Shown piece by piece: positions 3,963 to 18,606 of a DNA stretch of 24,518 bases (position 1 is its first letter; each line of letters opens with the position of its first letter). The notes beneath the pieces were generated by a model that was given only the letters and a program-made list of their open reading frames with translations, was not told where the DNA came from and ran no database searches. Location: positions 1-24,518 of IMG/VR virus record IMGVR_UViG_3300021225_000323; one strand, given 5' to 3'. This DNA is from a virus. The translations under genes and the position numbers were made by a program.

Positions 3963-4817
3963 ATGGCTAATACGTTCGATGCCGCGCTGGTCGGCTCCAC
4001 CATCAGCAATAAGATGCTCACCGCCCTCGGCGCCCGCATGTCGGCCCTGAGCCTCTTCTCCACCAACTTCGCCGATGAGGTCAAGAAGCCCAAGGAGACC
4101 CTGCAGGTCGGTCTCGTCACGGCCGCTTCGACCACCGTCGTCAACCCGACCGACTTCTCCCAGATCGGTGGCGCGACTGTCGGCAAGACCACGGTCACTC
4201 TCGACCATATCTACCAGCCCTTCGGCTTGTCCAACGCGGACATCCAGAACGGCTTCAAGCTGGAGCAGCTTGTCCAGGCTAACGTCGATGCGTTCGCCGA
4301 CAAGATCTGGGCGCTCATCACCGCGAACATTACGACCGCCAATTATGGCGCCGCTGTTGCCACCGCTGCTGACTCTGCGTTCACCCCTGGTTCCGCTGAG
4401 ATGAAGGCTCTTTGGGCCGCCGTTTCCAAGAGCACCCGCAAGGGCCTCGTGACCAACTCCGGCATCTACGCCAACCTCATCCCGGTCAACACCACCTCGT
4501 TGGCCCTCGTCCCTGGCGCCTACGGTTTCGATAACGGCGTCCACTACGCTACCGCCTTCAACGGTCAGGCCAAGTTGGCCGCGTTCGCCTGCTCGCCTGA
4601 GGCCATCGCGATCGGTACCGCCAAGCCGGACTTCTCGCTCGTCCAGGACAAGTTCCTCGTGTCGGACTCCGTGACCATCGACAAGCTCGGTATCACGGTG
4701 TTCTACAACGTCTGGGCTGACCCGTCCACCCGTAACCTTATCGCCTCCATCGAAGTCATGTTCGGTTCGGCGAAGGGTATCACGAGCGGCACGATGGCCC
4801 TCGCCCTCAACCCCTAA
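3963..4817 (+). CDS. Major capsid protein (HK97-fold type)
   Basis: The 284-residue product is predicted to be the coat protein, from its place after protease and scaffold and from its composition: Ala/Thr/Val-rich, no Cys-rich or catalytic motif, and a helical N-terminus followed by mixed beta segments. Features include VQANVDAFADKIWALIT near residues 102-118, reminiscent of the spine helix of coat proteins, and a C-terminal FYNVWADPSTRNLIASIEVMFG segment in two adjoining parts. It has its own 35-base upstream gap, which is AT-richer than the surroundings (taattaaaacctATG) and lacks a Shine-Dalgarno site. An intrinsic terminator follows 21 bases after the stop, so coat mRNA probably ends there in part. 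Codons are strongly biased to C-ending forms, as expected for a highly expressed gene. Confidence 0.8.
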   Translation: MANTFDAALVGSTISNKMLTALGARMSALSLFSTNFADEVKKPKETLQVGLVTAASTTVVNPTDFSQIGGATVGKTTVTLDHIYQPFGLSNADIQNGFKLEQLVQANVDAFADKIWALITANITTANYGAAVATAADSAFTPGSAEMKALWAAVSKSTRKGLVTNSGIYANLIPVNTTSLALVPGAYGFDNGVHYATAFNGQAKLAAFACSPEAIAIGTAKPDFSLVQDKFLVSDSVTIDKLGITVFYNVWADPSTRNLIASIEVMFGSAKGITSGTMALALNP

Positions 4818-4838
4818 TCGGAAGAGGACGAACGAACG

Positions 4839-4867
4839 AAGCCCCCTTAACTGGGGGCTTTTTTTTT
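4839..4867 (+). terminator. Rho-independent terminator after the major capsid gene
   Basis: An 8-bp perfect stem (AAGCCCCC at 4839-4846 with GGGGGCTT at 4853-4860) encloses a 6-base loop and runs into nine T residues at 4859-4867. It stands between the major capsid gene and the first head-tail joining gene, within an otherwise co-directional late unit. It would cap most coat transcripts and lower expression of the joining and tail genes by partial read-through. Confidence 0.9.
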
Positions 4868-4876
4868 ACATAAAGT

Positions 4877-14097: not shown

Positions 14098-14235
14098 ATG
14101 GCAATCCTACTCTCATTCCTCATCGGTGCACTGGTTGGTTTCATCGGCGGTGCTCTGGTGGTTCGTAAGCATTTCGACAAGCTGAAGGCCGCCGAAGGCA
14201 AAGCCGTTGACGTGCTTACCGCCCTTAAGAAGTAA
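14098..14235 (+). CDS. 45-residue single-pass membrane protein
   Basis: The frame ATG (14098-14100) to TAA (14233-14235) encodes 45 residues. Residues 3-22 form one hydrophobic Gly-rich segment (ILLSFLIGALVGFIGGALVV), followed by a basic cytoplasmic-type helix (RKHFDKLKAAEGK). This is the size and layout of small phage holin or holin-regulator proteins and of YtxH-type membrane proteins. It fills what would be a 156-base gap and leads the lysis cassette, ten bases before the spanin-like lipoprotein. The start follows 'taaatacatat', AT-rich and lacking Shine-Dalgarno. Coding is supported by size, spacing and codon bias, not by homology. Confidence 0.6.
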   Translation: MAILLSFLIGALVGFIGGALVVRKHFDKLKAAEGKAVDVLTALKK

Positions 14236-14245
14236 CCGAAGGCAA

Positions 14246-14989
14246 ATGCGTTCTGCGTTAATAACAATTTTCCTTATTAACGCGGCGCTGTTGGGCGGCT
14301 GCTCTGTAACCGATACGCAAGGCACCGGTACGGCTACCCCTCCGGTCAACGAGCTAGCCACGATCGGCAACCAAATCGACAAGGCCGACGCCCGAGTATC
14401 CGCAGGGGTGCAGGTGGCACGCAACGCCAATGCCCAGGGTAAGCCCGCCGTGGTCGAGCAAGAGCTGGCCGTGGTGGCCTCTTACCTGCCAGCCCCTGAT
14501 CCCCATAACTTGGCCTACATCTCAAACCGCGTGATGCGGAATGACCCTGCCGAATATAAGCGGGCCATGGAGGCTGGGGCCAAGCTGCTGGCCGTCATTG
14601 AAAAGGGCTGGGAGAAGGCTGAACAGGACGCCGCCAAAAACCAGAAGGCGCTGAAAGAGGCTAACGCCAAGGTGGTCGAGCTCACGGCCGAAGTGGAGCG
14701 GGTCAAAACAGAGGGTATCCGTAATGCCTTCACGGTGGCCGCTGGGGCTTGTTTCCTTGCCGCCCTAGGGTTGGCCATCCTTGGCCAGTATATCCGGGCT
14801 CTGGGGGCATTTGCGGTAGGCGGGGCCATCGGTGCCTTGCCTTACCTGTTCGCCAGCCCATGGTTCGTGCCAGGGGTAGCCATCGCCACTGGCCTATGCG
14901 CCATCCTCGCGGTGGCTTGGGTCATCTATTTTCGCATAATCCGAAAACCTACCCAGCCCGATGACCAAGCGCCGCCAGCAAATCCGTGA
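14246..14989 (+). CDS. Spanin-like lipoprotein with coiled coil and C-terminal membrane segments
   Basis: The 247-residue product starts MRSALITIFLINAALLGGC, a lipoprotein signal with lipobox LGG-Cys19 and Ser at +2, which favours outer-membrane sorting in model Gram-negatives. Residues 20-155 would be periplasmic, with a coiled coil at about 118-155. Residues about 160-231 hold three hydrophobic segments (160-180, 185-203, 207-231), ending in a short Pro-rich tail. Lipid anchor at one end and membrane anchor at the other is the plan of unimolecular spanins, which fuse the two membranes at lysis. Those usually have one transmembrane segment, so the match is partial. I chose ATG 14246, since an earlier frame start at 14207 would lose the signal peptide. 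Holin-like genes are nearby. Confidence 0.55.
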   Translation: MRSALITIFLINAALLGGCSVTDTQGTGTATPPVNELATIGNQIDKADARVSAGVQVARNANAQGKPAVVEQELAVVASYLPAPDPHNLAYISNRVMRNDPAEYKRAMEAGAKLLAVIEKGWEKAEQDAAKNQKALKEANAKVVELTAEVERVKTEGIRNAFTVAAGACFLAALGLAILGQYIRALGAFAVGGAIGALPYLFASPWFVPGVAIATGLCAILAVAWVIYFRIIRKPTQPDDQAPPANP

Positions 14990-15248
14990 GCCGGATATCA
15001 CCTTCCGCAAGCTAGGGAAGGCCAAGCCCACGCACCGATCCGGGTGCAAGACGCCGTTCGGCGTATGCTGGAAGGGTACAGGTAAGATTCATATCGACCC
15101 GCGCCAATCAGAGGAAGAGCTGCTGGACACGCTGGTGCACGAGCTGGTGCACGATGTACAGCCGTTCCTGACTGAAGACGCGGTGGATAACATCGGCATT
15201 TATATCTCCAAGGCTCTCTGGAAACAGGGATACCGCCGCATCCGATGA
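14961..15248 (+). CDS. Small HExxH zinc-peptidase-like protein (SprT/ImmA-type core)
   Basis: This 95-residue protein carries LVHELVHDVQPFL, with H60-E61-x-x-H64 as a zinc-binding catalytic motif in the middle of a helix. The acidic E72/D73 a short way after could be the third ligand. The layout, a basic N-terminus, a beta hairpin (FGVCWKGTGKIHIDP), then the HExxH helix, fits minimal SprT-like or ImmA/IrrE-like peptidases. It has no signal peptide, so a cytoplasmic target is likely. It overlaps the lipoprotein by 29 bases and the next gene by 4 (ATGA). Substrate unknown. Confidence 0.6.
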   Translation: MTKRRQQIREPDITFRKLGKAKPTHRSGCKTPFGVCWKGTGKIHIDPRQSEEELLDTLVHELVHDVQPFLTEDAVDNIGIYISKALWKQGYRRIR

Positions 15249-15964
15249 ACATCACCCAACCATGGAAGCGGTTCATGGCGGTCGGCTGCTCGCATGGCAT
15301 CTACGCCGACCCGCTGGCCACGGAGGCCGTGCTTAGGTTCCGCGAGCAGTACGCCCCGCATGAGATGATTCACCTGGGGGACTTCACGGACATGTCCCCT
15401 TTCATGGGCGGTTCCAATGGCGACGGCGAACCCCTTAAGCCCGACCTGCAGGGGGGCGTCGATTTCCTGAATCAACTGAGGTGCACCACGATTCTCTGCG
15501 GGAACCATGAGTACCGCCTGTGGCGCGACCGCAACAGCCATAACCAACTGAGAGCCCTTGCTGCCGAGACCTGTATAGAGGCCATCGAGACCACGGCGCT
15601 GAAGCTTCATGCCCGCCTGATTCCATATATCGGCGTGTTCCAGGCATACAAGCTGGGCGATTACCTGTTCACGCACGGCACGATCTACAACGAGAATTCC
15701 TGCCGCGATATGGCAGAGACCTATGGGAACGTAATCTTTGCCCATACCCATAAGGCCAGCATTCAGGCCGGACGCACGTTCAACCCTTCACGCGGCATCT
15801 CCGTGGGTACGCTGACCCGCAGGGGTGCTATGGAATATGCTAACACCCGTAAGAGCACCTTAGCCTGGTCACAGGGGTTCGTTTACGGAGAGTATTGCGA
15901 AACCTCGTTACAGCCTACACTACATATCCACGACGGCACCGAAACATGGAAACTCCCGAAGTAA
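15245..15964 (+). CDS. Calcineurin-like metallophosphoesterase
   Basis: A 239-residue protein with the core motifs of metal-dependent phosphoesterases: H17 in GCSHG, GDFTD (D46), the GNHE box at 86-89, H144 in LFTHGT, and AHTH at 166-169. The first motif, normally D-x-H, reads C15-S-H17 here, so one metal-ligand Asp is replaced. The rest of the active site seems intact, followed by a GISVGTL strand. Family members hydrolyse phosphomono- or diesters, including dinucleotides and RNA ends; the substrate here cannot be told. It is cytoplasmic, translationally coupled on both sides, and lies between a peptidase-like gene and a winged-helix gene. Confidence 0.75.
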   Translation: MNITQPWKRFMAVGCSHGIYADPLATEAVLRFREQYAPHEMIHLGDFTDMSPFMGGSNGDGEPLKPDLQGGVDFLNQLRCTTILCGNHEYRLWRDRNSHNQLRALAAETCIEAIETTALKLHARLIPYIGVFQAYKLGDYLFTHGTIYNENSCRDMAETYGNVIFAHTHKASIQAGRTFNPSRGISVGTLTRRGAMEYANTRKSTLAWSQGFVYGEYCETSLQPTLHIHDGTETWKLPK

Positions 15965-16188
15965 AAGCCCAGCGTCTCCTTGAGGCGTATTTCAACATGA
16001 AGCACAATCAGGAAGACCCGACGCCGGATGGGTATGTCAGCATCGACGAGCTGATGGCCGTTCACGGCTGTTGCCGGGCACAGGTGTTCCGCATGATGGG
16101 CAAGCTGGAGAAGCAGGGTAAGGTGCACCGCATCCAACTGCGTAAATTCCGAATCAACCGTATTCAGGTCGTGACCTATTTCAAGTGA
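15946..16188 (+). CDS. Small winged-helix DNA-binding protein
   Basis: The 80-residue protein has the segment YVSIDELMAVHGCCRAQV followed by FRMMGKLEKQGKVHRI and a basic end, the pattern of a winged helix: a recognition helix after a turn, then a beta wing. It may regulate late or lysis genes. The chosen start, ATG 15946, overlaps the phosphoesterase end by 19 bases; a longer frame from 15895 would add Arg/Thr-rich residues lying entirely in the upstream gene. The stop overlaps the next GTG start (GTGA). Confidence 0.55.
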   Translation: METPEVKAQRLLEAYFNMKHNQEDPTPDGYVSIDELMAVHGCCRAQVFRMMGKLEKQGKVHRIQLRKFRINRIQVVTYFK

Positions 16189-16562
16189 GCCCGCCCCCCG
16201 CCCCAGTCGATAACGAGCAGACGCAAGCCCTCGTCAAAGATGGCATCATCGCGTCGTCGCTGGGTGGGCTGGCCATGGCCGCTCGGCTCCTGCTCAGCAC
16301 CGAACCCGTTTCGGCCGGCTGGGTGGTTCGCCGGGTATCGGCCGCCGCGATCACGGCCGCTCTGGTCGGGTACGGAGTGCAGGACCATATCGCCAGCGTC
16401 GGCCTGCGTATGGCCGTGGTGGGGGCATGCGGGTACTGCGCGCCGGAGGCCACGGATTACCTGCTACGTTACGTGAAGGCACGCGGCGAGGCCGAGGTGG
16501 CCAAGGTAACTCCTAAATCCCATGGCAAAGCCAAGCCCAGCAAAGCCAAGCGTAAGCGCTGA
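16185..16562 (+). CDS. Holin-like membrane protein with basic C-tail
   Basis: This 125-residue protein starts at GTG overlapping the upstream stop. A Pro-rich N-terminus is followed by three hydrophobic segments (about 20-37, 50-67 and 70-88) and a strongly Lys-rich C-terminus (SHGKAKPSKAKRKR), the layout of a class I-type phage holin of the LydA-like group. Holins form the inner-membrane lesions that release or activate the endolysin at a set time. It partly overlaps the next membrane protein (41 bases), as holin and antiholin genes often do. The call rests on topology and location, not on a specific motif. Confidence 0.6.
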   Translation: MSPPPAPVDNEQTQALVKDGIIASSLGGLAMAARLLLSTEPVSAGWVVRRVSAAAITAALVGYGVQDHIASVGLRMAVVGACGYCAPEATDYLLRYVKARGEAEVAKVTPKSHGKAKPSKAKRKR

Positions 16563-16854
16563 GCGCAACCTGCTCTGGGCGGTGGCCATCATAACGCTGG
16601 CCTGCATCGTTACCGCCGGGTCGGTCGCCTATATCTCGGATTTCATCCTTGGTTCGTTCCAGGATACCAACGCGATGGTGATGCTGATAACGGACGCCGG
16701 CACGAAGTCGGACGACAAGAACCTCGAAAGAAACCTATCGTCTGCCACGATGGCCCTTAAGACCTGCAGGGATTTGGGGCTAGCGTTGGCCGTGGGCTGT
16801 TTTGGCGTAGGGGTGGCGGTACTGACCCGCCTCTGGCGTCAAAAGGCTTCCTAG
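16522..16854 (+). CDS. Second holin-like / antiholin candidate membrane protein
   Basis: The 110-residue product overlaps the Lys-rich end of the upstream holin-like gene. It has one hydrophobic segment at 18-41 (LLWAVAIITLACIVTAGSVA), a polar middle with KSDDKNLERN, and a second hydrophobic segment at 84-102 (GLALAVGCFGVGVAVL) before a basic end. Two-segment proteins of this size occur as class II holins or antiholins. It is the last + strand gene before the convergent - strand operon. Start ATG 16522 follows 'aaatccc', without Shine-Dalgarno. Confidence 0.55.
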   Translation: MAKPSPAKPSVSAERNLLWAVAIITLACIVTAGSVAYISDFILGSFQDTNAMVMLITDAGTKSDDKNLERNLSSATMALKTCRDLGLALAVGCFGVGVAVLTRLWRQKAS

Positions 16855-16869
16855 GCCAACGTAGGGGGC

Positions 16870-16897
16870 AAAAATAAAGCCACCCCGAAGGGTGGCT
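16870..16897 (-). terminator. Intrinsic terminator for - strand transcription, UUCG loop
   Basis: On the - strand an 8-bp perfect stem AGCCACCC/GGGTGGCT (16878-16897) closes on UUCG with a C-G closing pair, an unusually stable tetraloop, and is followed by UUUAUUUUU-like sequence (16870-16878). On the + strand the hairpin is followed by gtcgcc with no T tract, so it acts for the - strand operon that ends with the transglycosylase gene. Confidence 0.85.
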
Positions 16898-16954
16898 GTC
16901 GCCTGCTCCTACACCTAACCCAGTGCGCGGGCTCTCGCAAACCCAACAGGCGAC
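16898..16954 (-). ncRNA. Candidate structured RNA or 3'-UTR element (three-way junction)
   Basis: Read on the - strand, GUCGCCUG (16947-16954) pairs with CAGGCGAC (16898-16905) as an 8-bp closing stem. Inside lie a 6-bp hairpin GGGUUU/GAGCCC closed by a GCGA (GNRA) tetraloop (16929-16944) and a 4-bp hairpin CACU/GGUG (16912-16925). The terminator hairpin follows directly at 16897. GNRA and UUCG loops appear only in the - orientation, which supports that strand. A further small hairpin ACGC/GCGU (16953-16966) overlaps the 5' side of the closing stem and could compete with it. The RNA lies 38 bases past the transglycosylase stop. It may be a free small RNA or a 3'-end stabiliser; no known family recognised. 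Confidence 0.5.
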
Positions 16955-16992
16955 GCCGAAAAGCGTGGGCTGGGGCGTTATCCCGTCAAGCC

Positions 16993-17469
16993 CTACCGAT
17001 GGGTGAGGTTCGCAACTCGCTGGGCGTAGTCGGCTTTCGCGGCGGGGGCTAGCTGGGGGTTAAACCCTACCCGCTTGGCGCCGTTATAGCCCATACCCCA
17101 GATTAGGGCTATCTGGGCTGGGGTGGGGGTATGTATCCCTTCGGCCGTCAAACGGGCTCTGATGGCACGCAGGAGGGCCAAGGCCACCATATCCTGGGCG
17201 ACTGGGGAACGCCACTGGGTCAGCGAATAGGTCGGTCGGCCTTCGCGGGCTAGCTGAGCGTTGCCGTCAGCCCATGCATCCCGGTGAGTCTGGTACAGGC
17301 CGTATGCCTTGCCGCCGTCGCCACGCTGGGTACGGACGCCGCCTTCGACCTGACCGATCGCATGAAGCAACCGGGTATCGTCGTGCGCCTGGGCGGTGCA
17401 CCCAAGCAACATGAGGGCCAGAAATGGGAAAGGGTTACTCACGGCCAATGGATTTAAGATACGCGTCAC
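16993..17469 (-). CDS. Secreted lytic transglycosylase-like murein hydrolase (endolysin candidate)
   Basis: The 158-residue protein has an N-terminal signal with hydrophobic FPFLALMLLGC; Cys in LLGC could be a lipobox, while AQA a little later suits signal peptidase I. The mature part has SLT-like elements: IGQVEGG with the likely catalytic Glu, AYGLYQ matching the 'GLxQ' motif, MGYNGA matching the 'YNxG' motif, and ADYAQRV at the end. It would cleave peptidoglycan. It is last in the - strand operon, away from the holin-like genes on +. I used GTG 17469, which gives an Arg in the n-region; GTG 17442 is an alternative that overlaps the upstream stop more tightly. A role in DNA entry instead of lysis is possible. 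Confidence 0.65.
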   Translation of the reverse strand: MTRILNPLAVSNPFPFLALMLLGCTAQAHDDTRLLHAIGQVEGGVRTQRGDGGKAYGLYQTHRDAWADGNAQLAREGRPTYSLTQWRSPVAQDMVALALLRAIRARLTAEGIHTPTPAQIALIWGMGYNGAKRVGFNPQLAPAAKADYAQRVANLTHR

Positions 17470-17722
17470 GAATCTTACGCGTCTCGATAATCGACGTCGT
17501 ACCGTTCAGACGCACGTCCCCTTCGACCGTACGGATGACGATATAATACGACCGCATACGGGGGTGCTTGCGGATGTGGTGGTCCTTCAGCCGGCGCTTG
17601 GACGGTTTATTGCTCCAGCCTGGGCCGGGGCTGTCAGATCCACAGGCCAGAAGGGAGGTCAGGCGGTCGGGCGAGATGCGGAGATAGGCCGCGCGTTCCT
17701 GGATATCAGCGGGTAGGGTCAT
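17435..17722 (-). CDS. Hypothetical early protein, 95 aa
   Basis: No family recognised. The N-terminal part is helical (ADIQERAAYLRISPDRL), the middle is very basic (KPSKRRLKDHHIRKHPRMR), and the C-terminus has two or three beta strands then a helix (YYIVIRTVEGDVRLNGT, RKIRDAYLKS). The basic middle suggests nucleic-acid contact. It overlaps both neighbours by 17 and 35 bases and belongs to the dense - strand operon. Confidence 0.5.
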   Translation of the reverse strand: MTLPADIQERAAYLRISPDRLTSLLACGSDSPGPGWSNKPSKRRLKDHHIRKHPRMRSYYIVIRTVEGDVRLNGTTSIIETRKIRDAYLKSIGRE

Positions 17723-17897
17723 CGATTCGGTATGGTTCGGCCAGCGTCTTAGCCCTGACGGCCTTCATCATCTCGTCATAGGCGGCCTTCTTCGCGGCAT
17801 CCTCTCGGCGGGCATAATCAAACAACTGAGCCACCTGCCATTTGAGCCGGGCAACGTCGGCCTCTAGCTCGACGATGCGTTCGTGGTGGGTGTTCAT
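17706..17897 (-). CDS. Small coiled-coil protein, 63 aa
   Basis: The protein is nearly all helix, with a heptad-type coiled coil from ERIVELEADVARLKWQVAQL and a charged second half. No membrane segment or catalytic motif is present. Its start overlaps the upstream stop as ATGA. It is one of several short coiled-coil products in the operon. Function unknown. Confidence 0.5.
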   Translation of the reverse strand: MNTHHERIVELEADVARLKWQVAQLFDYARREDAAKKAAYDEMMKAVRAKTLAEPYRIDDPTR

Positions 17898-18175
17898 TTG
17901 TCGGTATATTTGCCGATATCATCTCGGCGTGGATGATGCATGCCAGGAACGCCGCCATATGGCAATTCGACCTGAACCACTCCGCAGGCGTTTTGGATTA
18001 GCTGACGGATCTTCTCGGGCGTCTCAAGTACAGTGCAGGATTCACCAGTAAAGGTTACATACGTGCGTGCAGCTACGCCATATTCGGCATCGTATCGGCG
18101 CATCATGACGATTGCCGAAGGATTCACCGTCACCTCTTGCTTCGTATATATGTCGGTCAGGATGATTAGGTTCAT
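17894..18175 (-). CDS. Small FlbD-like beta protein, 93 aa
   Basis: The chosen ATG lies six bases after the upstream stop and gives MNLIILTDIYTKQEVTVNPS; a longer frame from 18214 would add 13 residues within the upstream gene. The layout, 'tDiyTkqEvtVNPsaIv.mrr', then TYVTFTGESCTVLETPEKI, resembles FlbD-type proteins: a short strand, an 'N-P-x-x-I' turn, a second beta hairpin, and a C-terminal helix that carries 'E.pe.I..li'. Similar small domains occur in phage genomes with unknown roles. The C-terminal 25 residues are His/Pro-rich and likely disordered. The family link is tentative. Confidence 0.5.
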   Translation of the reverse strand: MNLIILTDIYTKQEVTVNPSAIVMMRRYDAEYGVAARTYVTFTGESCTVLETPEKIRQLIQNACGVVQVELPYGGVPGMHHPRRDDIGKYTDK

Positions 18176-18180
18176 GTCGC

Positions 18181-18606
18181 TCACGACTGCTTGCCATCCT
18201 TGGCGGCTTTCCAAGCATCAACCTCTGGGTGGTCGCTGTTCATATCCATCACGACATCCATCTGGTCAAGCAGTTGCACCATCGCATCCCCCGCCTTGCG
18301 GAGCCGCTCGACCTCGGCCTTAAATCGGTCAGCCTCGGCCTTTAAAGCAGCCACCTCCCTATCCCGGTTCTCCAGCTTCGCCTTCAGCTGCGCGATCGTG
18401 TTCTCGGCCTCGTCGTTTTCCTTCAGGGAAGCCTCCGCGTCGTACCGGGCATCATAGGTGGCCTGCGAGACCGCACGGCGCATGATGTCCTTCACCTCGG
18501 AATGCATCGCGGCCTTGAACGCGTCACGCTGGGATTCAGCCTGGTTGAGCAGCAGACGCAGTTTCGTGATCTCTTCCTGCGAAGGGTCGTAATCGGGGCG
18601 GCTCAT
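18181..18606 (-). CDS. Long coiled-coil protein, 141 aa
   Basis: The product is almost wholly alpha-helical with a long coiled coil (about residues 65-115, DEAENTIAQLKAKLENRDRE and AALKAEADRFKAEVERLRK). The N-terminal part (EEITKLRLLLNQAESQRDAF) is also helical. No enzymatic motif. It overlaps the upstream gene by four bases (ATGA). It may be a scaffold-like or host-interaction protein expressed early. No family recognised. Confidence 0.5.
   Translation of the reverse strand: MSRPDYDPSQEEITKLRLLLNQAESQRDAFKAAMHSEVKDIMRRAVSQATYDARYDAEASLKENDEAENTIAQLKAKLENRDREVAALKAEADRFKAEVERLRKAGDAMVQLLDQMDVVMDMNSDHPEVDAWKAAKDGKQS

Follow-up and report, generated by a model that had tools for sequence, protein, structure and literature searches.

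The gap between the convergent genes

The window is the whole stretch of DNA analysed (24,518 nt, IMG/VR record IMGVR_UViG_3300021225_000323), and its portal, RecT and helicase genes identify it as a tailed phage. A rightward late block and a leftward early block meet in it, and their final genes face each other across a 138-nt gap. The features discussed below are as follows:

16522-16854, + strand: 110-aa membrane protein, holin-like by inspection only, final gene of the rightward late block
16855-16992, no strand: gap between the convergent genes, 138 nt
16870-16877, - strand: U-rich tract (UUAUUUUU) directly after the terminator hairpin
16878-16897, - strand: predicted intrinsic terminator hairpin, 8-bp stem (16878-16885/16890-16897) with a cUUCGg loop
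16898-16954, - strand: predicted two-hairpin element with one GCGA tetraloop, not conserved (from folding, z-scores and comparison with the related locus L003)
16953-16966, - strand: weak 5' hairpin, its three inner pairs forming beside the closing stem (from folding)
16993-17469, - strand: putative secreted endolysin (by inspection), final gene of the leftward early block

A first-pass annotation had called this gap the largest non-coding stretch, and it apparently is, the other large gaps in the window being about 90 nt and 59 nt. An apparent gap after 14089 is occupied by a 45-aa ORF (14098-14235). Small ORFs were sought in 16855-16992, and the only frames found were short GTG/TTG frames that run beyond the gap, none of them convincing. 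A tRNA search of the window returned none, and the endolysin ORF matched nothing in Pfam or PHROG.

The probable terminator hairpin and the fold upstream

Read on the - strand, the terminator is AGCCACCC-UUCG-GGGUGGCU-UUAUUUUU. Like intrinsic (Rho-independent) terminators, which combine a GC-rich stem of 5 or more pairs and a short stable loop with a direct U-rich tract at the end of an operon, it has a GC-rich stem (here 8 pairs), a UUCG loop and a tail with T in 6/8 positions directly after the hairpin. Its position fits as well: it follows the last gene of a transcription unit on its own strand, 95 nt past the stop codon of the endolysin ORF. There is no difference of substance from such a terminator; what is added is a second predicted fold directly upstream. 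This terminator-like - strand site has the best stem of its half-window, its hairpin has a z-score of -4.2 (0/1000 shuffles fold as well), and its pair probabilities are near 1 in all contexts tried, from 123 to 600 nt. A second good terminator lies elsewhere in the window, on the + strand at 4838-4861 (GAAGCCCCC-UUAACU-GGGGGCUUU and a following U run), in the gap 4818-4876 that separates two late genes.

The upstream fold is present much as the first-pass annotation described it. Folded between stop codon and U tract, the 3' UTR is predicted to form a closing stem, the GCGA hairpin and another hairpin, and then the terminator. The closing stem is a perfect 8-bp inverted repeat (16898-16905/16947-16954), or 10 bp counting U-G and U-A, and the GCGA hairpin reads GGGUUU-GCGA-GAGCCC on the - strand. 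The GNRA-type loop and the cUUCGg loop are both confined to the - orientation, as had been noted before.

The statistical standing of this element depends on how it is framed. Taken alone, 16898-16954 has a z-score of -3.4 (p about 0.002), for a stretch that was selected after the fact; its predicted stability exceeds that of 99.8% of its shuffles, and 0.26% of the window's 57-nt tiles fold equally well. The whole leader (16898-16992) folds no better than its shuffles (z -0.37, p 0.35). Repeats of 8 bp separated by 3-60 nt occur in 4% of those shuffles and in 3.4% of the window's 95-nt tiles. The closing stem also depends on context: its probability is 0.84-1.0 in the isolated 3' UTR, 0.78 with 108 nt of upstream mRNA added and 0.00 with at least 300 nt, while the terminator remains at 1.0.

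The 5' hairpin had been proposed to overlap the closing stem and so form a switch. We considered competition between the two and rejected it: the overlap is confined to the two outer pairs (probability 0.09-0.16), and the other three, inner pairs (0.77-0.92) form together with the closing stem (0.84-1.0). The 5' hairpin is therefore not a competing switch.

The region had no match in Rfam at gathering thresholds and, up to E 10, only chance matches to eukaryotic families. No sigma-70-like promoter was found within 15500-18500, a weak criterion if the host's promoters depart from the sigma-70 consensus, but a result that lends a separate small RNA no support. A DNA search of the region among annotated phages found no match. 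An exact 16-mer from the border of element and terminator occurs in 21 IMG/VR contigs, 0 of them with the terminator next to it, as by chance. Among genome contigs, we found one Verrucomicrobiota MAG contig with a phosphoesterase gene and without an endolysin homologue; the MAG assignment of this related contig may be a binning accident.

Related phages at the same border

Homologues were collected from IMG/VR for both flanking genes (60 loci for the 16522-16854 protein, 52 for the endolysin). Where both genes could be placed within a single locus, they were nearly always on the same strand, and the convergent arrangement was found only in contig IMGVR_UViG_3300047297_000281 (L003/L059/L091). 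Two RecT searches yielded no additional syntenic junction. The window and this contig are collinear, with 76% identity over 14239-17389.

The two gaps are close in length (138 nt in the window, 137 nt at L003:3445-3581), and their sequences are 47-49% identical, with shuffled sequence giving 45 +/- 5%. Over the last 300 nt, the endolysin gene is 76% identical and the 16522-16854 gene 61%. Of the window's pairs, 3/10 in the closing stem and 3/11 in the hairpins can pair in L003. When the alignment is forced on a common 10-mer, gap identity rises to 56% (69/124), and this anchoring, which favours a match by design, maps 5 closing-stem and 8 hairpin pairs in L003. Depending on the alignment, 2-3 pairs are changed on both sides with pairing kept and 11-17 are broken or gapped, counts that come from two sequences only. 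The L003 gap folds differently, so the architecture expected of a new RNA family is not kept in this relative.

Only a terminator-like hairpin is retained in the same place. The strong L003 hairpin has a different sequence and begins about 99 nt past the stop codon (95 nt in the window). The U tract that goes with it is poor (CCAUUUGCC) and a simple terminator scan makes no call there; given that tract, conservation of termination itself is weak. What the two phages have in common is the gap's length and a hairpin at its end, while the two-hairpin element is not kept. The comparison is evidence against a conserved architecture, though not proof of absent function.

The 10-mer common to both gaps, GGGTTAGGTG, lies 12-14 nt before the terminator hairpin. 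By chance, 0.04 shared copies would be expected, and outside the 10-mer the two gaps cannot be aligned. The 10-mer is paired differently in the window fold and the L003 fold.

Other relatives, which have another gene order, carry different elements at this border. In seven loci (L022, L024, L048, L053, L056, L061 and L081), the homologue of the 16522-16854 gene is followed directly on its 3' side by a + strand terminator, and two lineages (L028/L109 and L051) have tRNA-like genes at the same border:

L022:1663-1716, L048:4567-4620, L053:5389-5441, + strand: terminator copies
L056:5359-5412, L061:5386-5441, L081:5717-5770, + strand: terminator copies
L028:5339-5435 (- strand), L109:7981-8077 (+ strand), L051 about 4635-4740 (- strand): tRNA-like genes, by Rfam tRNA (43 bits in L028)

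The + strand terminators share one build, AUAAYGG-stem-CUCU-RYC-small loop-GRY-stem-UCYUCYUUU. The outer stem of 9 bp covaries, the CUCU internal loop is constant, and the inner hairpin is small and often has a GNRA loop. Covariation was checked with the six distinct sequences from the seven loci: 97% of cells pair and 5 pairs are changed on both sides, whereas sliding the partner by one column lowers paired cells to 54-60% and double changes to zero. A model of this terminator (R1) finds one copy per locus, always at that slot. The window yields no good match to this model (11 bits at best vs 68-76), and the element has no Rfam match. Like the window's site, it is terminator-like and adjoins the homologue of the 16522-16854 gene; it differs in lying on the opposite strand and in having a CUCU internal loop and an inner hairpin with a GNRA or other small loop. 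It is a better supported structured element than 16898-16954, yet it is also a terminator.

In the tRNA-like genes the loop of the anticodon arm is very short (GCGCC-CUA-GGCGC; UCGCC-CAU-GGCGA), and the T arm is preceded by a hairpin insertion around CCGTGGCCACGG. Between L028 and L051, the stem enclosing this insertion shows compensatory changes. The window has neither the covarying + strand terminator nor a tRNA-like gene at the homologous slot.

Reading of the early-operon end

The analysis shows the anatomy, position and energetics of the site, along with the upstream fold's lack of conservation. The feature is very probably an ordinary intrinsic terminator that ends the leftward early transcript, preceded by a non-conserved 3' UTR fold, and we infer that it acts as a terminator in the host. 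RNA polymerase leaving the endolysin gene at 16993 would transcribe the 95-nt GC-rich 3' UTR, the cUUCGg hairpin (16897-16878) would form, and the U tract (16877-16870) would then release the transcript by Rho-independent termination. On the simplest account, the late block's facing orientation makes an intrinsic terminator necessary at the early block's end; termination there would stop early transcription from going antisense into the facing late genes. The upstream two-hairpin fold would be an incidental product of folding in a GC-rich UTR; at most it would stabilise the 3' end non-specifically.

The first-pass annotation had instead proposed a new structured RNA at this operon end. The terminator and a 3'-end role survive from that proposal; the new RNA is not well supported. 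A small RNA derived from the 3' UTR, or a selected stabiliser of the early mRNA's 3' end, composed of the two-hairpin element and the terminator, would account for the element's z-score of -3.4, its GNRA and UUCG loops, its stacking directly on the terminator and the closing stem's high probability in the isolated 3' UTR. We nevertheless consider it improbable, as the element is not conserved in L003, the closing stem falls to 0.78 and then 0.00 as upstream mRNA is added, no promoter-like site was found and Rfam offers only chance matches even at E 10. Less probable still is a regulator of the overlapping convergent transcripts (e.g., a bidirectional terminator or antisense switch): the gap is small, the genes converge and the terminator hairpin, a perfect inverted repeat, can form on both strands, but on the + strand it is followed by GUCGCCUG and has no U tract, making the terminator one-directional, and the coexistence of 5' hairpin and closing stem leaves no competitive switch.

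The lesson is that two stable tetraloops in a single-sequence fold next to a terminator are insufficient to claim a new RNA. There is a slim chance that a small RNA, stable and specific to this lineage, or an exonuclease-blocking 3' end arises from the - strand 3' UTR (16870-16966); if true, it would fine-tune the early-to-late transition in the phage. The practical gain is an annotated early-operon end in an uncultured phage, together with a comparison of what its relatives carry at the same module border.
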